Source: Balneolaceae bacterium
Lineage (GTDB): Bacteria; Bacteroidota; Rhodothermia; Balneolales; Balneolaceae
DNA length: 64,000 bases
Direction: 5' to 3'
Assembly (NCBI GenBank): GCA_034521495.1
Contig: JAXHMK010000009.1
Span: 62,001-126,000, forward strand
Positions 10,796 through 51,903 of the stretch are shown piece by piece. The first letter of the stretch is position 1. The number at the start of each line of letters is the position of its first letter. Made by a program: the position numbers and the translations under genes. The notes under the pieces were generated by a model that did no database searches, was not told the origin of the DNA, and was given only the letters and a program-made list of their open reading frames with translations.

Positions 10796-11323
10796 TTAAT
10801 TAAAACTCACAGTTCCCTGGAATTCTCGTTTCAGGGCTACGCTTCCGGTTCGCGACATTTCAGTGATTCCATATGGTTTCAATACCTGGATAATCGCATC
10901 TACTTTGTCGGTATTTCCGGTCACTTCAAGTGCCAGCTTATCATTCGTGATATCGATCACTTTGGCCTCGAAAGCCTGGGCAATCAGCATGATTTCAGAT
11001 CGTCCGGCTTTTGCGGTTGACACTTTTATAATTGCCAGTTCGCGTTCGATACATTTTTTATGTGTTAAATCGGTCACCTTCCGTACATCAATCACATTGT
11101 GAAGATGTTTGTTGATCTGTTCTACGGTCTTTTCATCGCCATATGTGGTGATGGTAATTCGTGCCATTCCGGGTTCAGCCTCCGATGCAAATGTAACACT
11201 GTCCAGTTCAAACCCTTTTCCGCTGAAAATCCCGATTATACGGGAGAATGTATTCAAATTGTGCTTTACCAATACGGTAAGCGTGTGCCTGGAATCTTTT
11301 TTCAAAACTGTAGTTGTTGCCAT
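10796..11323 (-). CDS. ilvN: acetolactate synthase small (regulatory) subunit
   Basis: This 175-aa protein binds valine through an N-terminal ACT domain (about residues 9-85, with LVKHNLNTFSRIIGIFSGKG) and has the C-terminal ALS_ss region ending KPYGITEMSRTG. It activates the IlvB catalytic subunit and gives it feedback sensitivity. Length matches the IlvN/IlvH family. Its ATG overlaps the ilvB stop by one base (TAATG), a tight arrangement suited to equal production of both subunits. Confidence 0.95.
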   Translation of the reverse strand: MATTTVLKKDSRHTLTVLVKHNLNTFSRIIGIFSGKGFELDSVTFASEAEPGMARITITTYGDEKTVEQINKHLHNVIDVRKVTDLTHKKCIERELAIIKVSTAKAGRSEIMLIAQAFEAKVIDITNDKLALEVTGNTDKVDAIIQVLKPYGITEMSRTGSVALKREFQGTVSFN

Positions 11324-13110
11324 TATTTTTTCACGTCTTCATCACGTTCAACCATTTCATCGAGAGCTGCACCGGAGGGTACCATCGGGTAGCAGTTTTC
11401 CGTTTTTACGACTCGAAAGTCCATAAGTACCGGGCCGTCTTTAATTTGCATCGCTTTCTCAAGTACTTCATTCATTTCCTTCGGATTGGATGCACGCATT
11501 GCTGTTGCTCCGTAGGCTTCAGCCAGTTTCACAAAATCAGGATTATTACTTCCAAATACAGAATAACTGGTTCGGTTATCATAAAAGAGTTGCTGCCACT
11601 GGCGAACCATGCCGAGACATTCATTATTCATCAGGGCAATCTTTACCGGAATCTTGTATTCCACAGCGGTTGCCAATTCACAAGAGAGCATCTGGAATCC
11701 GCCATCGCCCGTAATACATACCACATCGCGATCGGGACAAGCCATTGCGGCTCCCATTGCTGCGGGAAATCCGTATCCCATTGTTCCGAGTCCGCCGGAT
11801 GAGATCCACGACCGAGGATTGTTAAACGTATAATGCTGAGCTGCCCACATCTGGTGCTGACCCACATCGGTCACCACAATCGCATCTCCATTCGTTGCAT
11901 CAGAGATCGCTTTAATCATATGCTGCGGGTAGATCGCATCGTCAGATTTCGGCACCTTCAACGGATGCTCTTTTTTCCAATCGTTAATGGTATCCCACCA
12001 GGCATCTATTTTTGGCTTTTTAGCCAGTTTACCGATAGCGGGAAGTACATTCTTCACATCTCCCACAATCGGAACTTCACATTCCACATTTTTGCCGATG
12101 CAGGAGGGATCGATATCAATATGTATTTTTCGGGATTTCTGAGAGAATCCGTTTAAACGGCCGGTCACGCGATCATCAAACCGGGCTCCAACGGCAAGCA
12201 ATACATCACATTCGGTAATTGCCATATTGGCATACCAGGTTCCGTGCATTCCCAGCATTCCCACCGATTGCGGTTTGCTTTCGGGAAATGCACCGAGTCC
12301 CATCAAAGTAGTTGTGATCGGGATGTTCAATTTCTCGGCAAATTCGGTTACCTCTTCCCACGCATTGCCCAAAATGGCACCGCCGCCCACATACATCAAG
12401 GGCCGTTCCGCTTTACTGATCATCTCGGCCGCTTTTGCAATCTGAGGCTGATGCCCGTGAAGGGTGGGTTTGAAACTCGGTATATCTACTTTCTTCATTC
12501 CTGAGTACCGGGCCGCCGTGTTCAGCATATCTTTAGGAAGATCAACCAAAACCGGTCCCGGCCGTCCGTTTGTTGCAATATGAAATGCTTCGCGAACTAC
12601 ATTTTCAAGTTCATTAACATCACGAACCAGGTAATTCTGCTTGGTGATGGGCCGTGTAATTCCCACGATATCCGCTTCCTGGAAAGCATCGTTGCCAATC
12701 ACACTTGTTGGAACCTGACCTGTTAAAACAACCAGCGGAATGGAATCCATCATGGCTGTGGCGATTCCGGTTACCGTATTGGTTCCGCCCGGTCCTGATG
12801 TTACCAGCACAACCCCTGGTTTTCCTGTAGCCCGGGAGTAGCCGTCGGCCGCATGAGCGCCTGCCTGTTCGTGCCGAATCAGAACGTGGTCCAGGTCGTG
12901 CTCATCAAAAAGCACATCATAGATTGGAAGGTTGGCCCCGCCGGGATAACCAAAGATGGTATCCACGTCAAGATCTGCTAATGTTTTGATGAGGATCTCG
13001 GCTCCGTTGAACTTTGGAGCAGAATCTTCCTCTTCAGAATGCTTAATAGACTGGAGGGGTTTTTTCTGTTGAAGTTTATTTGCCGGTGAACTTGATTCGG
13101 ATGGTTTCAT
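11323..13110 (-). CDS. ilvB: acetolactate synthase large (catalytic) subunit
   Basis: This 595-aa TPP- and FAD-dependent enzyme makes acetolactate or 2-aceto-2-hydroxybutyrate. Motifs include [13 protein letters not shown], the catalytic-glutamate region [29 protein letters not shown] and the TPP/Mg2+ motif ITGDGGFQM...NN. The first about 35 residues are polar and Ser/Lys-rich, an extension beyond the conserved core. It is the first structural gene of the operon, 29 nt downstream of a stem at 13137-13182 and an Ile/Leu-rich leader ORF. Confidence 0.96.
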
Positions 13111-13136
13111 ATTGTCTCGCGGATATATATTGCCCG

Positions 13137-13182
13137 CCAGAGGTCAAAGTTTTGTAAAATCATATTCGCTTCTAACCTCTGG
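13137..13182 (-). promoter_or_regulatory. RNA stem between ilv leader ORF and ilvB start
   Basis: On the minus strand CCAGAGGT (13182-13175) pairs perfectly with ACCTCTGG (13144-13137) across a 30-nt loop. It starts 9 nt after the leader ORF stop and ends 26 nt before the ilvB ATG. There is no T-run, so it is not a classic terminator. It could sequester or space the ilvB initiation region or compete with another structure. The regulatory role is inference. Confidence 0.5.
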
Positions 13183-13191
13183 TAGGTGTGA

Positions 13192-13434
13192 TTAACTAAT
13201 AATTAGAATTAGGTTTAGAATGCCAGAAATTAGAATAGATAGGACTAACAGCGGAATAAGATTGCTGGTAATTCTATCAAAAGAGAGAGAAAGAGTAGAT
13301 GCTGAAGCTTGTATATTACTGATAGAGATCGCGATAAATACAGCAATCACGTTCAATAAAGAAGCTGTGCCAATCCCGGTAGCCGGGTAGTGCGGAAAAT
13401 TTTTAGAAAAAGTATGTGTGATTGCGGTAGACAA
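13192..13434 (-). CDS. candidate ilv-leu operon leader peptide, Ile/Leu/Val-codon rich
   Basis: This open frame of up to 80 codons starts with TTG at 13434. GTG at 13350 is an alternative start that would give 52 codons. It ends 81 bp upstream of ilvB. The last 22 codons encode LIPLLVLSILISGILNLILI then IS, about 15 of them Ile, Leu or Val. A second Ile/Val cluster (VIAVFIAISIS) lies upstream. Attenuation by branched-chain codons is well established for enteric ilv and leu operons, and the product of this operon is exactly these amino acids. The alternative is a small two-helix membrane protein, since the same composition is hydrophobic. No good ribosome-binding site separates the two readings. 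Confidence 0.55.
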   Translation of the reverse strand: MSTAITHTFSKNFPHYPATGIGTASLLNVIAVFIAISISNIQASASTLSLSFDRITSNLIPLLVLSILISGILNLILIIS

Positions 13435-13623
13435 TTTGTAATCTGTTATTTCAACATCGCATTCAAAAACATAGACAAAGGCATGAATGGAAGCAAGAAA
13501 TTTTTATAGTTTGTTTAGACAATTTTATTATTCAAAGATTGATTTTATCAAAAGCGCTTCCAGTAAAATTGTTTTGGATGTCTAACATATTGAATTTCAA
13601 TAACTAAGAACCTTTTTAAATTT
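13435..13623. promoter_or_regulatory. divergent promoter region between ilv leader and ilvD
   Basis: This 189-bp AT-rich gap must hold promoters for both directions. On the minus strand, TATGTTTTTG (about 13468-13459) resembles the Bacteroidota -7 element TAnnTTTG, with a weak CTTG about 23 bp upstream. On the plus strand no element was convincing. A 7-bp inverted repeat TGGAAGC/GCTTCCA spans 13488-13562. Confidence 0.3.
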
Positions 13624-26747: not shown

Positions 26748-26944
26748 AGCCCCGAAGGGGCGTCATCAATAGCATAGGACGGAGTCCTATGTATTGGGAA
26801 TCATAGGAATTGTGTAGCCCTGAAAGGGCGCAAGCTTTCCTCTGACAATCTCTTGGGCTTACGCCCTTTCAGGGCTGATCGAATGAAATGCGTTATTTTT
26901 CATAGGGTTTCACCCCATGCTATTGATGACGCCCCTTCGGGGCT
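26748..26944. repeat. 197-bp element with 28-bp perfect terminal inverted repeats
   Basis: Positions 26748-26775 and 26917-26944 are exact reverse complements over 28 bp, and each arm itself contains the palindrome GCCCCGAAGGGGC. Inside is a second pair, GTAGCCCTGAAAGGGCG and CGCCCTTTCAGGGCT, plus AGGAC-GGAG-TCCT. Non-coding and MITE- or integron-like in shape, but no transposase link is visible. The rest of gap 26533-27093 has only short hairpins, such as GTCCCGAACCGTCGGGAC at about 26709. Confidence 0.8.
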
Positions 26945-41956: not shown

Positions 41957-42724
41957 TTAATTAATAATTCGTACGTTAATTCCTTCTTCTGCCATTTTAG
42001 CCTTAAGATCTGAAATTTCAATCTCCCTGAAATGAAAAATGCTGGCGGCTAACACTGCATCTGCGTTGCCAATTAGAACAGCATCGCAACAGTGCTGAAT
42101 GGTACCGGCGCCGCCACTTGCAATCACGGGAATGGAAAGGCGTTTATTCGCTTCTTTAAGTAATTCAAGGTCAAATCCGGATTTTGTTCCGTCGCGATCC
42201 ATGCTGGTTAACAAGATTTCGCCGGCTCCAAGCTGTTCGGCTTTTTCCATCCAGTCAAGTGCATTCAGGCCGGTTGGTTCAGATCCACCTTTCACAAAAA
42301 CTTCCCACGAATCGTCATCTGGTCGTTTTTTGGCATCTACTGCGGCAACAATCGCCTGGAAGCCAAATTCGTCGGATGCGCGGGTAATCAAATCCGGATC
42401 ACGAACAATTGCGCTGTTTAACGACACTTTATCTGCACCCGCTTTTAAAATTTCTTCGATCTCTTCGACTGATTTGATTCCACCCCCTACGGTAAACGGA
42501 ATATTGATATGCAATGCGATATCTTTTACCAACTTAACAAGCGTTTTCCGTTTCTCTTTGGTGGCAGTAATATCAAGAAAAACAAGTTCGTCTGCACCCT
42601 CTTCGGTATATCGCTGGGCCAGTTCTACAGGATCACCGGCATCCCGAAGGCCGACGAAATTCACCCCTTTCACGGTCCGGCCGTTTTTAATATCAAGGCA
42701 TGGTATGATTCTTCTTGTTAGCAT
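41957..42724 (-). CDS. hisF: imidazole glycerol phosphate synthase cyclase subunit
   Basis: This 255-aa TIM barrel, with HisH, converts PRFAR to IGP and AICAR. Signatures: start [20 protein letters not shown] with catalytic Asp11, [33 protein letters not shown] with the second catalytic Asp, and [10 protein letters not shown]. Length is standard. It is separated from hisA by 1.9 kb holding the plus-strand serpin and zinc-ribbon genes, so it needs its own promoter in 42725-43108 or very long readthrough. Confidence 0.97.
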
Positions 42725-43108
42725 AATTTAGAAGGTGTGAAGATAACAGATATTTTGATTGAAAAGAATGTTTTCTGTGGATTCTGTGGTGTAGGTTATG
42801 ATTATTTCATTCAAATAAAAAATCGTTGTGGGTGAGCTTCCGGCGGTGGCAATCCCCAAACTATTGATAGGGGATTTCAAAAATCTATGTGAGAATTTAA
42901 AAAAGAAGATCATTTGGTTATGAGATTGCATGCTGCTAACAATGGTCGTTAGAGGCGTCGTAGCGATGTCAGAAACATCACTTGATAACAAAAGTACATA
43001 GGTACATCATCAGAAGCGGGTGTATAGATAACAGAGGTCATCAAAAAAAATAAAATATAAAATATCATTCTGCAGGTAATGACGTTCTATCAATAAATCA
43101 AATCAACC
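42725..43108. other. 384-bp divergent gap between hisF and the serpin
   Basis: It must hold promoters for both directions. A degenerate family 3 element (GAGCTTCCGGCGGTGGCAAT) lies at about 42834-42853. No clear promoter pair or gene was recognised. Confidence 0.4.
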
Positions 43109-44374
43109 ATGAACATGAAGATTAAAAAACTGCTGATTTTGACTTTTTCAACCATTCTCATCGCGATATTTTTTCTCACCTGCCAATCGGATGTAACAGG
43201 TCCGGGCGACAGTAGTGGTGAACTGCCAAGAGAGCTTACCGCTTCAGAAAAACAACTTGTAAAAGCGGATCAGTCGTTCAGCTATGATATTTTTCGCCAA
43301 ACCGTTTCGTACGATAATGAGGAGGAGAACCTGTTTATCTCTCCGTTAAGTATTTCTACCGCCCTGGCAATGACGTTAAACGGAGCAGAGGGAGAAACAC
43401 TTGCCCAGATAAAAGAAGCCCTTCATTTGAGCGGAATGGAAATCGAAGAGGTAAACCAGGCGTTTCAATCACTTATTGAGTTGTTGGTTTCTGTTGATCC
43501 TAAAGTGACCATGAAAATTGCAAACTCAGTCTGGCATGAGCAGTCTTTGCCGGTAAAAGATGATTTCCTGCAACGTTTAGAAGAATTTTATAATGCCGAG
43601 GTTGCCGGGCTGGATTTTCAGGATCCGGGATCTGTGGATACGATCAACCGTTGGGTGGATGATAAAACCGAAGGAAAAATTGAGAAAATTCTCGATGAAA
43701 TTCCTGCCGAGATGGTGATGTACCTGATAAATGCGATCTATTTTAAAGGAGACTGGCTCAGTAAGTTTGATAAGGATGATACCCGTAAAGCGGATTTTCA
43801 TCTCGAAAATGGGGAAACCGCGGAGGTTGATATGATGAGCCAAAAAGAGAGATTTGCAGCTTATTTTTCTGAGGACGTTCGGATGATTGAGCTGCCATAT
43901 GGAGACAGTTTGTTTACCATGAGTGTGCTGATGCCGGGTGATCCGGAAATGCCTCTCGATCAATTTATTGAAGAAAAAGTAACATATAAAAACCTGTCCC
44001 AATGGAGATCAAATTTGCACGTTTCAGAGGTTCCACTGGAACTTCCAAAGTTTGAGATGGACTATGAGATTACCTATAACGACATTCTGAAATCGATGGG
44101 CATGGAGCAGGCTTTTAATGAGAATTTAGCTGATTTCTCAGGCATCGCAGACGTCTCACCACAGAATCTCTATATCAGTGAGGTGAAGCATAAAACGTTT
44201 GTCAGCGTTGATGAAGAGGGCACCGAAGCTGCTGCTGTAACTTCAGTTGGTGTTGGAGTTACGTCTTTGCCACCATCCATGGTTGTAAATCGGCCGTTTG
44301 TGTTTATTATCCATGAGAGAGAAAGTGGCACGAATCTTTTTATGGGTAAAGTGAAAGATCCGTCCGTGTTGTAA
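43109..44374 (+). CDS. serpin-family protease inhibitor, lipoprotein
   Basis: This 421-aa protein has a lipobox IFFLTC (Cys25), so it is membrane-anchored. The serpin fold is complete: NLFISPLSISTALAMTLNGA, AIYFKGDWLSKFDK and the C-terminal NRPFVFIIHERESGTNLFMG. The reactive-centre loop starts at about residue 369 with hinge EEGTEAAAVTSVGVGV, small residues as needed for an inhibitory serpin, and ends SLPPSM. P1 cannot be fixed, but lies near Thr-Ser-Leu. It interrupts the his gene run on the opposite strand. It probably protects the cell surface from foreign or own proteases. Confidence 0.95.
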   Translation: MNMKIKKLLILTFSTILIAIFFLTCQSDVTGPGDSSGELPRELTASEKQLVKADQSFSYDIFRQTVSYDNEEENLFISPLSISTALAMTLNGAEGETLAQIKEALHLSGMEIEEVNQAFQSLIELLVSVDPKVTMKIANSVWHEQSLPVKDDFLQRLEEFYNAEVAGLDFQDPGSVDTINRWVDDKTEGKIEKILDEIPAEMVMYLINAIYFKGDWLSKFDKDDTRKADFHLENGETAEVDMMSQKERFAAYFSEDVRMIELPYGDSLFTMSVLMPGDPEMPLDQFIEEKVTYKNLSQWRSNLHVSEVPLELPKFEMDYEITYNDILKSMGMEQAFNENLADFSGIADVSPQNLYISEVKHKTFVSVDEEGTEAAAVTSVGVGVTSLPPSMVVNRPFVFIIHERESGTNLFMGKVKDPSVL

Positions 44375-44453
44375 ATCAATTTAAAGACCCGAAGGTATGT
44401 TTTATTTAAACCAAGTATAAACTATGGTTTAGTTGAACATTTTCCGGGAAAGT

Positions 44454-44476
44454 TGACGTTATTAAAATGAACGTCA
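44454..44476 (+). promoter_or_regulatory. inverted repeat upstream of the zinc-ribbon gene
   Basis: TGACGTT (44454-44460) and AACGTCA (44470-44476) form a perfect 7-bp inverted repeat with a 9-base spacer, 21 bp before the start codon and just before an AAAGGAGGA ribosome site. It could be an operator or an RNA hairpin. Confidence 0.45.
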
Positions 44477-44497
44477 ATCATAAAAGGAGGATCAGAT

Positions 44498-44593
44498 ATG
44501 GATAAACCGTCAACATGTCCGCAATGCGGAGCAACAGCAGTTGATACTTGCCAGATGGAAGAGCAAAAGCAAGATGACTGCATTCGAGAATAA
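44498..44593 (+). CDS. 31-aa zinc-ribbon-like microprotein
   Basis: A tiny gene with ATG at 44498, an unusually strong ribosome-binding site (AAAGGAGGAT, spacing 6-7) and a terminator directly after it. The product begins MDKPSTCPQCGATAVDTCQM and ends KQDDCIRE, with cysteines at 7, 10, 18 and 28. CPxCG is a half zinc ribbon. A second pair is only loosely present, so zinc might be held by a dimer or a partner protein. Compact signals on both sides argue that it is real. Function unknown. Confidence 0.6.
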   Translation: MDKPSTCPQCGATAVDTCQMEEQKQDDCIRE

Positions 44594-44613
44594 CGGATAA
44601 ATTATTTAATTAA

Positions 44614-44647
44614 AAGCCGTCCTGATTAGTGGGATGGCTTTTTCTTT
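44614..44647. terminator. terminator between zinc-ribbon gene and hisA, probably bidirectional
   Basis: AAGCCGTCC-TGATTAGT-GGGATGGCTT is followed by TTTCTTTTT on the plus strand. On the minus strand the same stem is followed by TTTTAATTAAAT. It lies between convergent genes, so it can end both the microprotein transcript and the hisG-hisA transcript. Confidence 0.75.
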
Positions 44648-44668
44648 TTGAAATTGAGTTGTGGATAA

Positions 44669-45379
44669 TCAAATCTCCGATAGTTCTTCAAGGCCAATCT
44701 TTCCTTCGTAATATGCTTTCCCCACAACTACGCCGTATATATCCAGTTCTTTAAGTTCGTTTAGATCTTCTATTTTTGATACCCCTCCTGATGCTATCCA
44801 ATTCAGTTCAGGAAATTCGTCTTGAAGATCTCTGTACATTTCAATATTGGGCCCGCTCAGCATTCCATCCCGCGCAATATCGGTGCTTAGAACGGTTTGC
44901 AGCCCGGCATCAAGCATTGGTTTTATAAACTCGCCGATGGATTGATCCGATGTTTCCAGCCAACCCCCGTAAGCCATTTTTCCATCCTTCAGGTCTAAGC
45001 CAAGAATCATTTTTTCAGGATAATTTTTGATCGCCTGAAGCCACTCTTTTGGTTTTTTTACCGTCATGGAGGAGCAGATTATACCACTTAATCCGGCATC
45101 TAAAAGCAGTTCTATATCTCCTTGAGATCTGACTCCACCCCCGGTTTGAACGGACAATTCCAGTTCATTAATGATCCGTTTGATGATCAGCAGGTTCTCA
45201 AACTTCCCACTTTTAGCCCCGTTCAAATCCACCACATGGATGTGAGAAAAACCAGCTTCCTTAAATTTTGAAGCTTCTTCTATAGGGTTGTCGTTATAAA
45301 CTGTTTTCTTCTGATAATCTCCTTTCTGAAGGCGTACAACCTGACCGTTAAGCAGGTCAATAGCGGGAATAACTTTCAT
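44669..45379 (-). CDS. hisA: ProFAR isomerase
   Basis: This 236-aa TIM barrel opens the ProFAR ring by an Amadori rearrangement. Signatures: MKVIPAIDLLNGQVVRLQKG with catalytic Asp8, VQTGGGVRSQGDIELLL, and the second half STDIARDGMLSGPN with the second catalytic Asp, then WIASGGVSK. Length fits. It is the last gene of the first his block. A two-hairpin region separates it from hisH, and a terminator follows. Confidence 0.96.
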   Translation of the reverse strand: MKVIPAIDLLNGQVVRLQKGDYQKKTVYNDNPIEEASKFKEAGFSHIHVVDLNGAKSGKFENLLIIKRIINELELSVQTGGGVRSQGDIELLLDAGLSGIICSSMTVKKPKEWLQAIKNYPEKMILGLDLKDGKMAYGGWLETSDQSIGEFIKPMLDAGLQTVLSTDIARDGMLSGPNIEMYRDLQDEFPELNWIASGGVSKIEDLNELKELDIYGVVVGKAYYEGKIGLEELSEI

Positions 45380-46419: not shown

Positions 46420-47307
46420 CTAAATTGTTCCTTTTGTAGTTGGTAAAATTCCTTTGATTCGTTCATTGCGGCTCACAGAAAATCGCAGTGCTTTCGCGAA
46501 CCCCTTAAAAATGGCTTCAATTATGTGATGCTCATTTTTTCCATCTGCTGAAACATGGAGGGTGGCGCGTGCGTTCATTGCCAGCGAATAAAAAAAGTGC
46601 TCCAGCATCTCCGTTGGAAAATCGCCAACATACTCCCGTTTCAGATCAACATCCCATTGCAGGTAGGGTCTGTCTGACAAATCAATAGCAACAGTGGCCA
46701 GGGTTTCGTCCATCGGCAGAGCAAACCCGTAACGCTGAATTCCGGCTTTATTATCAGAAATTGCTTTTCGAATGGCCTGACCCAGGGCGATAGCGGTGTC
46801 TTCAATTGAGTGGTGCTCATCCACTTCCAGGTCTCCATCACACCTGATTTCCAGATCTACTAATCCATGTCGCGCAATCTGTTCCAGCATATGATCGAAA
46901 AACTTCAGGCCGGTATTGATCTCACTCTGACCCGTTCCATCGAGGTTTATAGAAACAGAAATGTCGGTCTCTTTCGTATTTCTTTTGACGACCGCCTTAC
47001 GGCTTGGAAATAAAATACTATGGCTCAATGTAGCCCAGTCGGCAGCTTCTTCAACAAGCAATTCACCTTCGATAAATTGGAAAGATTGCTTTCGCTGAAT
47101 TGATCCGTCAGCACTTTCAGCACTAAAATCACCCACATAGATCTCTTCATTTTCGATCAGTTTCTTCTGTTGATCCGATAAGAAACCGGTATCAAATGAA
47201 AACTCGACATCATGTTCCTGCAGATATTTTATCGAGAAAAGCGCACCGGGCGGGAGTAAAGAGTCGGAACTGTTGGTTAGAGCAGACTTATCAATCCATA
47301 TTTTCAC
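46420..47307 (-). CDS. hisB: imidazoleglycerol-phosphate dehydratase with novel N-terminal extension
   Basis: 295 aa. Residues about 108-295 are a complete IGP dehydratase: FFDHMLEQIARHG, the metal-binding DEHHSIEDTAIALG, and KNEHHIIEAIFKGFAKAL. The first about 105 residues (IWIDKSALTNSS, LLPPGALFSIKYLQ) occupy the place of the histidinol-phosphate phosphatase domain in bifunctional HisB, but are much shorter than its 165 residues. They keep only one Asp where HAD enzymes have DxDGT, so phosphatase activity is unlikely. Its start overlaps the hisC stop by 4 bp. Calling the extension a degenerate HAD is inference. Confidence 0.93.
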   Translation of the reverse strand: MKIWIDKSALTNSSDSLLPPGALFSIKYLQEHDVEFSFDTGFLSDQQKKLIENEEIYVGDFSAESADGSIQRKQSFQFIEGELLVEEAADWATLSHSILFPSRKAVVKRNTKETDISVSINLDGTGQSEINTGLKFFDHMLEQIARHGLVDLEIRCDGDLEVDEHHSIEDTAIALGQAIRKAISDNKAGIQRYGFALPMDETLATVAIDLSDRPYLQWDVDLKREYVGDFPTEMLEHFFYSLAMNARATLHVSADGKNEHHIIEAIFKGFAKALRFSVSRNERIKGILPTTKGTI

Positions 47308-49865: not shown

Positions 49866-50744
49866 TCAAGCGATCATACTTTCAATTGGCAGCATTACAA
49901 TTCCTGTGGCGCCAGCTTCTTTGAGCCGTTCCATTACATCCCAAAATGTAGATAACGGAACAACAGTATGGATAGCCACCATTCCATTATCGGCCAGTGG
50001 CATCACCGTTGGGCTTTTTAGTGAAGGTATAATTTCTTTGATTCTTTCCACCGATTCCTGTGGTGCATTCATCATAATATACCGGCTTTTAGCCGCTTTT
50101 TGATATCCTTCAATTCGCTGGAGGATTTTTTCAATAAGTTGTTGTTTGCCTTCGGAAAGAGGCTTATTCGTTTTAATAAGCTGAGTTTCAGAATCAAAAA
50201 TATTAATGATCTCCTCAAGGCCGTTTGCTTTTAATGTGTTTCCGGTGGAAACGAGATCGCAGATAGCATCGGCAATTTCCAGCCGGGGTGCAATTTCAAC
50301 CGATCCGGAGAGTGTAATTACTTTTACATTCACGCCCTTCTTTTCAAAAAATCGTTTGGTGATTCCGGGATAACTTGTTGCAATTTTTTTTCCGGCAAAA
50401 TCTTCCGGTTTTTTGATGGCGCTGTCTTTAGGAACTGCCAGAGATAACCGGCAAACGCCGTAATTCAATCCGCGGAGGATCTCAACATCCACCTGGTCTT
50501 CCTCAACAACGTTAGCCCCGACAAAGCCAAGATCGCAAATGCCGTCTTGTACATATTCGGGAATATCGTCATCACGGATCAAGAGGAGTTCAACATCGAA
50601 ATTGAGACATTTAACGAGCAGGCTTCGTTTATAATCGTCGAATTTTAAGCCAATGCCCTCCAAAAGGTTCAATGTTTTATCGGTCAGCCGTCCGCTTTTT
50701 TGAACGGCAATTCGTAGTGATGTAGTAGAATCGAGAGTTCTCAT
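49866..50744 (-). CDS. hisG: ATP phosphoribosyltransferase, long form
   Basis: This 292-aa protein catalyses the first and controlling step of histidine synthesis. Catalytic part about 10-215 (LRIAVQKSGRLTDKTLNLLE, LVSTGNTLKANGL for PRPP binding). The C-terminal ferredoxin-like domain (about 216-292, IIPSLKSPTVMPL, GIVMLPIE) is the histidine-sensing region of the long HisG form, which does not need HisZ. It is the first structural gene of the operon, 79 bp downstream of a His-rich leader ORF. Confidence 0.96.
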   Translation of the reverse strand: MRTLDSTTSLRIAVQKSGRLTDKTLNLLEGIGLKFDDYKRSLLVKCLNFDVELLLIRDDDIPEYVQDGICDLGFVGANVVEEDQVDVEILRGLNYGVCRLSLAVPKDSAIKKPEDFAGKKIATSYPGITKRFFEKKGVNVKVITLSGSVEIAPRLEIADAICDLVSTGNTLKANGLEEIINIFDSETQLIKTNKPLSEGKQQLIEKILQRIEGYQKAAKSRYIMMNAPQESVERIKEIIPSLKSPTVMPLADNGMVAIHTVVPLSTFWDVMERLKEAGATGIVMLPIESMIA

Positions 50745-50777
50745 AGGTCAAAAAATGGTCTATTAATACAGAAAATT

Positions 50778-50862
50778 AAATTTAAAAAGATGAAGTAAAG
50801 CTGTTGCGCGAAGAAAGGGAAGTTTAATGCACAGCATGTTCGTGGCTACCATGATGGTGGCC
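50778..50862 (-). promoter_or_regulatory. candidate his attenuator: alternative hairpins after leader peptide
   Basis: On the minus strand, GCTGTGC (50835-50829), at the end of the leader ORF, can pair with GCAACAGC (50807-50800) with one bulged base. The downstream stretch TTTACTTCATCTTTTT makes it terminator-like. A second hairpin GGCCACCATCATGGTAGCC (50862-50844) lies over the consecutive His codons. A ribosome stalled at those codons would change which hairpins form. The mechanism is inferred by analogy to classical his attenuation. Confidence 0.55.
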
Positions 50863-50898
50863 GAAATGATAAGAGGTATGTAATTTGTTTGTCAACAC
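50824..50898 (-). CDS. hisL: his operon leader peptide
   Basis: A 24-codon ORF (GTG start at 50898; TTG at 50895 is an alternative) ending 79 bp before hisG. The product includes TSYHFGHHHGSHEHAVH. Eight of 24 residues are His, with three consecutive His codons, in front of the histidine operon. The frame is closed by TAA just upstream at 50908. A possible -7 box TAATTTAC lies immediately upstream, with TTGG about 20 bp before it. His-rich leaders controlling his operons are classical, but the sequence is unlike the enteric HisL. A chance ORF with this composition at this place is very unlikely. Confidence 0.8.
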   Translation of the reverse strand: MLTNKLHTSYHFGHHHGSHEHAVH

Positions 50899-50987
50899 GA
50901 TTGTAAATTATGGATTTCAAAAATGGAATTCCAATACAATGCAAGAATAGCAGACGGTTAGTAGATTGATGAGTTAAATTCAGGCAT

Positions 50988-51044
50988 AAAAAAAGCAGAG
51001 TATCACTTCAAAACAGCCTTTTGCTTTGATGAACACCCTGCTTA
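50988..51044 (-). terminator. terminator of the DUF4382 lipoprotein gene
   Basis: Minus-strand AAGCAGGGTGTTCATC (51044-51029) pairs with GATACTCTGCTT (51004-50993), followed by TTTTTTT. It separates this gene from the his leader region. The remaining part of gap 50745-51069 holds the his leader and promoter. Confidence 0.7.
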
Positions 51045-51069: not shown

Positions 51070-51903
51070 CTACTCCTCGTCTTCGTCGAGATTAATTACG
51101 CCAAGATCGGTTGTGTCTGGCGCTGTAACATCTACATCGCTAATAATCTCATCGGAATAGCCTTCTTCTGATGGATTGATGGCGACATTATAAGAACCGG
51201 ATAACAATCCAACCAATCTGAATTCGCCTTCAGCATCAGCACGGGTACCTGCAACGGTATCAGTACCGGCAATGGCATAGACCCAGGGGAGGGATTCAGC
51301 GGGTTCAATACTTCCTTCAATGGCACCGGTTTCAGCAAATGCAACTGCACGAATAACCGGTTTTAAAAGAAACTTCCCGGAATTTCCGGCTTCAATAATA
51401 GAACGGGAGGCATCGAAATCCAGCAGAAGTGTGTACACCTGTCCACCCTCTATCTCTGCATTTACATTCAGTTTTAAACCAGATTGTTGAGCACTTGGAG
51501 TATCAAGAGAATGTGTGACCCCATTTTTGACGACCTCATTATCGTCACCCAGAATAAGCCTGATCTGGCTGTACATTCCTTCATCAAGATCGGTTTCGCC
51601 AAGTACTTCAAGCTTACCATTGGTGAGATCAAGAAGGTTGACTTTTTTAGGTTCTTCGCTGATAGTAATCCAACCGTCATCGTCGTCCTCAATCTCCTCA
51701 TTTTCACTGCGATGAATTCGTACCTCCTGAATATCAATCCAAACGGCTTCATAATTTCCGGGGGCATCTGTCAGATAGACTTGTAGTGTACCTCTGGTGG
51801 AATTTGAGTTTCCGTTATCGGCAACATCACATGAGGTGAGCAGAAACAGAGTAAAAAGTAGTAGTGTAGCAATTCGTGATATCATATTTCTCAGGTTTTT
51901 CAT
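51070..51903 (-). CDS. DUF4382 lipoprotein
   Basis: This 277-aa protein has a lipobox LFLLTSC (Cys about 25). A DUF4382 domain (about 38-195: GTLQVYLTDAPGNYEAVWID, VNLLDLTNGKLEVLGE, YSQIRLILG) is followed by a carboxypeptidase-regulatory-like beta-sandwich (about 195-265, GAIEGSIEPAESLPWVYAI) and an acidic tail. It is a typical Bacteroidota-style surface lipoprotein; the function of DUF4382 is unknown. Own terminator downstream. An esterase gene lies 77 bp upstream on the same strand. Confidence 0.85.
   Translation of the reverse strand: MKNLRNMISRIATLLLFTLFLLTSCDVADNGNSNSTRGTLQVYLTDAPGNYEAVWIDIQEVRIHRSENEEIEDDDDGWITISEEPKKVNLLDLTNGKLEVLGETDLDEGMYSQIRLILGDDNEVVKNGVTHSLDTPSAQQSGLKLNVNAEIEGGQVYTLLLDFDASRSIIEAGNSGKFLLKPVIRAVAFAETGAIEGSIEPAESLPWVYAIAGTDTVAGTRADAEGEFRLVGLLSGSYNVAINPSEEGYSDEIISDVDVTAPDTTDLGVINLDEDEE

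Follow-up and report, generated by a model that had tools for sequence, protein, structure and literature searches.

A histidine-rich leader peptide, probably translated from a leaderless mRNA, and a candidate attenuator in front of hisG in Balneolales

The window considered here, 64,000 nucleotides of a Balneolaceae genome, carries histidine biosynthesis genes on its minus strand. hisG is followed downstream by hisD, hisC, hisB, hisH and hisA on the same strand, and NCBIfam models confirm all of these as well as hisF. In window 41957-45379, hisA and hisF are set apart by an oppositely oriented ORF (43109-44374, plus). About 100 N-terminal residues of HisB (window 46420-47307) lie outside the matches to single-domain HisB models, and the bifunctional model covers 82-294 only. 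Around the start of hisG we distinguish the following features, given in window coordinates.

50988-51043, minus strand: strong intrinsic terminator after the upstream gene (51070-51903), a stem followed by T7, -22.8 kcal/mol.
50932-50934, minus strand: putative -33 element, the TTG of TTGG, 21 nt before the -7 box, from TTGG columns and spacer counts.
50903-50910, minus strand: putative -7 box TAATTTAC, with 4 of the 6 letters of TAnnTTTG by box scoring, ending 4 nt before the start codon.
50898, minus strand: predicted transcription start at the first base of the GTG (leaderless), placed from the 4-nt box spacing.
50824-50898, minus strand: histidine leader peptide ORF, GTG to TAA, translation VLTNKLHTSYHFGHHHGSHEHAVH*, 24 codons with 8 His, 3 of them consecutive.
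50844-50862, minus strand: H1, a hairpin that spans His codons 14-16 and is a candidate for pausing, -7.2 kcal/mol, with covariation.
50800-50835, minus strand: hairpin T, codons 22-24 with a downstream GC-ACAGC, weak terminator candidate, -5.7 kcal/mol, 21-nt loop.
50778-50799, minus strand: T-rich stretch 3' of hairpin T, from the sequence.
50745-50823, minus strand: C/U-rich, G-poor spacer before hisG, rut-like candidate, C 22.8%, G 7.6%.
49866-50744, minus strand: hisG, first gene of the presumed regulated operon, NCBIfam TIGR00070, 204.3 bits, above the cut-off.

The original prediction, made from the letters of this stretch, described a 24-codon ORF with eight His codons, three in a row, on the minus strand at 50898-50824 and 79 bp before hisG. 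On re-reading, the ORF is exactly as described, and the distance measured again from the leader stop to the hisG ATG is 79 nt. ORFs of this kind fall below the length that gene callers usually report. Set against the 8,978 ORFs of 12-60 aa that 464 kb of this genome contain (the 64-kb window plus 400 kb of another contig), the leader has the highest His density (8/24), and at least 6 His together with at least 20% His occurs in two of them, the leader and one 6/23 ORF. Since the strong terminator at 51043-50988 separates the gene upstream, the leader probably needs a promoter of its own.

The genome of the window belongs to the same genus as genomes whose hisG loci match Rhodohalobacter, the hisG of R. 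sulfatireducens being 97% identical. The search of relatives covered 98 genomes, of which 94 have hisG, the own genome counted, and G009, G043, G074 and G094 gave no hisG match. Upstream regions were read at 63 loci and in 60 further stretches; G010 and G053, where a contig end cuts hisG, and the same-class G095 and G097 lie outside this set, and L022, L048 and L058 were excluded for having little or no upstream sequence. The resulting 120 upstream stretches comprise 97 distinct ones, of which 71 carry 5 or more His within their last 36 codons. Three without ATG or GTG were dropped, namely L017 (wrong ORF picked), L069 (contig edge) and L091, leaving 68 leaders, one of them (L119) doubtful; as the leaders are related, the counts and combined z-scores given here are non-independent.

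It had been proposed that aligning the region upstream of hisG across Balneolaceae would support the leader if His codons were conserved between variable flanks, and this is the pattern that we find. With a His leader defined by 4 or more His among the last 36 codons, the window's own family has a His-rich ORF before hisG in 51 of its 55 stretches (L017 being positive through the wrong ORF; its true leader has 6 His, and it is missing from the 32-row alignment used below). Three other Balneolales families have one in 10/11, 3/4 and 1/1 stretches (14/16 in total). In a fourth, f3, the count is 2/18 (L085, L086, L088, L101-L108, L110-L113 and L115-L117), and the His leader is apparently missing from this family. 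The His codons stay in frame while the sequence and length of the leader change, L002 and L003 carrying an additional CAT codon; the peptides are otherwise variable, with G-S-H-G-H-x-V-H as a frequent ending in the genus. A histidine leader peptide before the his operon is thus strongly supported by comparison with relatives.

Two hairpins had also been predicted, GCTGTGC/GC-ACAGC after the leader with a T-rich stretch behind it and a second one over the His codons. Both are present, as T at 50835-50800 and H1 at 50862-50844. Taken over its full length, the leader RNA of the window is no more stably folded than its shuffles (z -0.46, 60/200 shuffles as good) and a terminator-pattern scan returned no site at the leader, so structural support comes from the relatives. 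In 32 aligned leaders, 6 of the 7 H1 pairs have changed on both sides and 60.7% of cells are paired, in an alignment with some rows out of register. H1 and T jointly reach a covariation score of 0.241 vs 0.200 +/- 0.014 for shuffles (2/500 as high), and slid versions reach at most 0.180. Paired cells amount to 64.1% vs 62.1 +/- 1.0 (16/500 as high), and the number of further pair types is unremarkable (76/500 shuffles as high). This count was made on an H1+T structure that we specified ourselves, after RNAalifold had predicted zero pairs on the same 32-row alignment. The covarying stems expected by the original prediction are supported by the covariation score and not by RNAalifold.

Compared with synonymous recodings, H1 is unusually stable in the 32 leaders (mean z -1.94; own sequence z -2.3). 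It is not extra stable in other genera of the family (z -0.09, n=21) or in other families (z -0.33, n=15). On this comparison, H1 is a feature of Rhodohalobacter and its near relatives. T has its 5' arm inside the last leader codons, which pair with a GCAC-type arm beyond the stop, and it is weak in Rhodohalobacter. 5-mers from these last codons are complemented downstream in 29/32 leaders of Rhodohalobacter and near relatives vs 16.3 +/- 2.6 expected, in 11/21 leaders of the family's other genera vs 10.4 expected, which is no excess, and in 11/15 of those from other families vs 7.8 expected. In each of the three leader groups, the T region folds more stably than its shuffles (mean z -1.1, -1.17 and -1.58), with z -0.5 for the own sequence. 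Searching 67 leaders for a hairpin with a U-rich tail gave none in 19, and two leaders from one sister-family genus have terminators of -17.0 and -15.4 kcal/mol with T-runs.

Over the leader region, an Rfam scan found no match at the gathering score, and three sub-threshold matches belong to other families and lie on the plus strand. Rfam includes both T-box and His leader families, and a T-box or other Rfam element was rejected for lack of a match. Elsewhere in the window (26748-26791, minus), there is an Acido-Lenti-1 RNA match scoring 37.1 vs a gathering score of 37.

We consider it likely that the his operon is controlled by an attenuator that senses charged histidyl-tRNA through translation of a leader peptide from a leaderless mRNA. 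Comparison of sequences supports the conserved His ORF, the promoter-to-start geometry described below, H1 and, more weakly, T. We infer the start site, pausing, termination and the direct blocking of T by the ribosome without a separate antiterminator.

The manner of termination is open to other explanations. Leader-peptide attenuation could operate with Rho, the C/U-rich spacer acting as a Rho site that is exposed once the ribosome leaves and covered while it stands at the last His codons. Between leader stop and hisG, the spacer has C 28.5% and G 6.1% in the 32 leaders of Rhodohalobacter and near relatives, compared with averages of C 17.2% and G 15.5% over 209 intergenic stretches of the same genome, 5.7% of which have as much C over G as the spacer of the window. 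Because the spacer is C-rich and G-poor, Rho-dependent termination is a live rival, and the weakness of T is in its favour. It is harder to reconcile with a T region that beats shuffles in all three leader groups, with the -17.0 and -15.4 kcal/mol terminators of the two sister-family leaders, and with the strong hairpin and T-run seen by eye in 14/15 His leaders of other Bacteroidota. On balance, we regard termination by Rho as somewhat unlikely.

An attenuator of three or four segments, whose antiterminator our folding missed, would be closer to the textbook case, since such attenuators have terminator and antiterminator structures (PMC9413887). We folded 22 leaders with a ribosome constrained at the first His codon. 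H1 and T then stand side by side in 16/22 folds in our reading, and the H1 region pairs otherwise in 6/22, which speaks for this form; no alternative pairing is common to the 22 leaders, and we think the three- or four-segment form unlikely. The coexistence of H1 and T in 16 of the folds means that an early stall alone would not prevent termination, and the pause role of H1 is assumed as the solution to this problem. When the ribosome stands at the stop, the 5' arm of T is by construction covered. This, together with the lack of an antiterminator common to the folds, favours direct blocking, although for want of a shared antiterminator the manner in which termination is blocked is an indirect reading.

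When 36 distinct upstream regions are aligned, a TTGG block is followed after about 21 nt by (C)ATANNTTT and, a few nt on, by GTG or ATG. The TTGG columns are 78, 91, 81 and 88% conserved in the 32 leaders of Rhodohalobacter and near relatives, and the most frequent spacer from TTG to box is 21 nt (28 TTGs over 68 leaders). A box 3-6 nt, mostly 4-5 nt, before an in-frame RTG has at least 4 of 6 letters in 67/68 leaders and at least 5 in 47/68, compared with 27% and 4.6% for shuffled sequences and with 23% and 3.0% at 624 other RTGs of the same regions, the count for the 68 leaders being made with the best box among in-frame starts, a choice that favours the result. When only the 43 leaders with a single possible start are counted, a box of 4 or more letters is present at 3-6 nt in 42/43; of the boxes that match 5 or more letters, 20 lie 4 nt before the start and 9 lie 5 nt before it. 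Over all 68 leaders, the latter boxes number 26 at a distance of 4 nt and 20 at 5 nt, followed within 60 nt by 19 nt and 33 nt with 6 each. The start codons themselves interchange among the 68 leaders (GTG 43, ATG 25). No box excess is seen at 318 ordinary genes in the 464 kb of the same genome (12 at 4-5 nt vs 6.2 per position at 8-60 nt), and a genome-wide leaderless habit is rejected on this ground.

In Flavobacterium johnsoniae, the box letters are placed at -12, -11, -8, -7, -6 and -5, and candidates whose box lay 4 or 5 nt from the start site were regarded as probable promoters (PMC6847099). Under this rule, a box at 4-5 nt from the start codon would make the RNA begin on the first base of that codon, and the leader mRNA is probably leaderless, as judged by promoter geometry and a box rule taken from F. 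johnsoniae. It counts against the leaderless reading here that the own box has only 4 of 6 letters, and so does the inefficiency of GTG starts on leaderless mRNA described in E. coli (PMC9031893).

Transcription might instead begin a few to tens of nucleotides further upstream, giving an ordinary short 5' UTR, in which case the TAnnTTT near the start codon would not be a promoter. The imperfect own box fits this, as does the minority share of transcripts with a very short 5' leader, or none, in Bacteroidota that have been mapped: 3.7% of leaders are under 10 nt in B. thetaiotaomicron (PMC7366714), 5.5% are leaderless in F. psychrophilum (PMC9723704), and 13% are at most 10 nt in F. johnsoniae (PMC6847099). 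A short 5' UTR would, however, leave unexplained the narrow box spacing, which many genera combine with a TTG some 21 nt farther upstream, and the lack of an excess at the same spacing in ordinary genes, and we therefore find it quite improbable. The original prediction had named a transcription start downstream of 50827 as evidence against itself, which matters because a sigma-70-like TTGACA-18-TATCAT with 11/12 consensus letters lies within the ORF. That this site is the promoter and the His codons incidental is hardly credible and was rejected, as promoter-like sites in the scanned region show no excess (2 vs a shuffle mean of 1.8), the site is by eye in the alignment weaker in the nearest relative L002 (CTGACA, TACCAT) and absent farther out while the upstream TTGG/TAnnTTT is kept, and an internal promoter does not explain the retention of in-frame His codons.

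In the preferred reading, that of a leaderless attenuator, a Bacteroidota-type sigma-A promoter would start the transcript at, or 1-2 bases from, the GTG, and a ribosome would load immediately on the transcript 5' end. By analogy with the his leader of enterobacteria, H1 would pause RNA polymerase until the ribosome reaches it. With ample histidine, the ribosome would pass the last His codons and leave, allowing T to form ahead of the U-rich stretch and transcription to end before hisG. With scarce histidine, it would be held at late His codons and cover the 5' arm of T, and polymerase, with T blocked, would continue into hisG. After the H1 pause, each remaining His codon for which charged tRNA is short would hold the ribosome over or beside this arm. 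In its complete form, the proposal is that most Balneolales families have a leaderless two-hairpin his attenuator in which the promoter is welded to GUG/AUG, H1 acts as the pause (in Rhodohalobacter), and a weak or Rho-dependent terminator is blocked directly with no antiterminator. We offer this full version tentatively, as a serious possibility that falls short of being probable.

A second leader was noticed in the window, an Ile/Leu/Val-rich ORF within 13111-13520 (minus) before ilvB (11323-13110). It lies upstream of ilvB in 21 of the 22 loci L134-L155, the remaining one, L154, being without upstream sequence. A conserved TTG is its likely start; as this in-frame TTG lies by eye about 25-30 nt after the -7 box, a leaderless start was rejected for the ilv leader. 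In a 19-row alignment, a hairpin CCAGAGGT..ACCTCTGG follows the stop with no T-run, and by eye it competes with a pairing to CTAATTTCTGGC within the ORF. Upstream of the ilv promoter, at window positions of about 13553-13565, TGGAAGCGCTTTT is strongly conserved with a palindromic core and is possibly an operator. Separately, C9:717793-718380 in genome G000 (L133) matches homoserine dehydrogenase with four internal stops and is pseudogene-like, an open copy lying elsewhere in the genome.

In a phylum sample of 80 genomes, hisG matches were found in 70, the own genome counted. At 19 loci outside Balneolales (L194-L212), a His leader precedes hisG in 15. These leaders resemble those of Balneolales in being short His-rich ORFs before hisG but differ in that a box with 5 or more letters is absent from the 3-6 nt interval ahead of the start in all 15, while 9/15 have a perfect box at 10-33 nt, and in the strong terminator already mentioned. 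His leaders are thus common among the Bacteroidota sampled, and it is the leaderless start that would mark Balneolales within this sample.

Compared with hisL of E. coli and Salmonella, the leader shares a His-rich peptide and a terminator-like hairpin before the first gene. It differs in that hisL has seven His codons in a row (PMC3896937), whereas here they are scattered through 24 codons, and in having probably no 5' UTR, a GTG start, a weak terminator that extends into the last codons, folds that show no common antiterminator, and no Rfam match at the gathering score. The layout had originally been called classical. This holds for a His leader before hisG; the promoter on the start codon, the weak terminator and the missing shared antiterminator depart from it.

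Leader peptides with similar starts have been described in Actinobacteria. Transcription of ilvBNC in Corynebacterium glutamicum begins one nucleotide from the start codon of the leader IlvL, although that system differs in phylum, amino acids and hairpins, with 292 bp from start site to first gene (PMC11857589). Mycobacterial polycysteine short ORFs are likewise leaderless, with contiguous codons for the sensed amino acid, and act as attenuators (Canestrari 2020, via PMC9031893), but they concern cysteine and actinobacteria. Within Bacteroidota, transcriptome-based clues point to leader peptides before amino-acid operons in Flavobacterium psychrophilum; "histidine" is absent from the main text of that paper, and its passage on leader peptides draws no link to leaderless mRNA (PMC9723704). 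Attenuation by his leader peptides is known from Proteobacteria and has been proposed for some Firmicutes (PMC9413887), and a study of leader genes near start codons in several phyla names leaders of hisG in gamma-proteobacteria and, in some Firmicutes, of hisZ (PMC4833913). In the open-licence literature, whose silence is weak evidence of absence, we found no publication on leader-peptide attenuation or leaderless leaders in Balneolales, none on attenuation of a his operon by a leader peptide in Bacteroidota, and none on transcription start sites in Rhodohalobacter.

Leaderless mRNAs are a minority in mapped Bacteroidota (PMC7366714, PMC9723704, PMC6847099). The narrow promoter-to-start spacing across an order would offer a natural and testable case of selected leaderless initiation, often at GTG. 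The timing of the start could matter for regulation in such leaders, and the arrangement in front of hisG suggests an attenuator that may work without an antiterminator.
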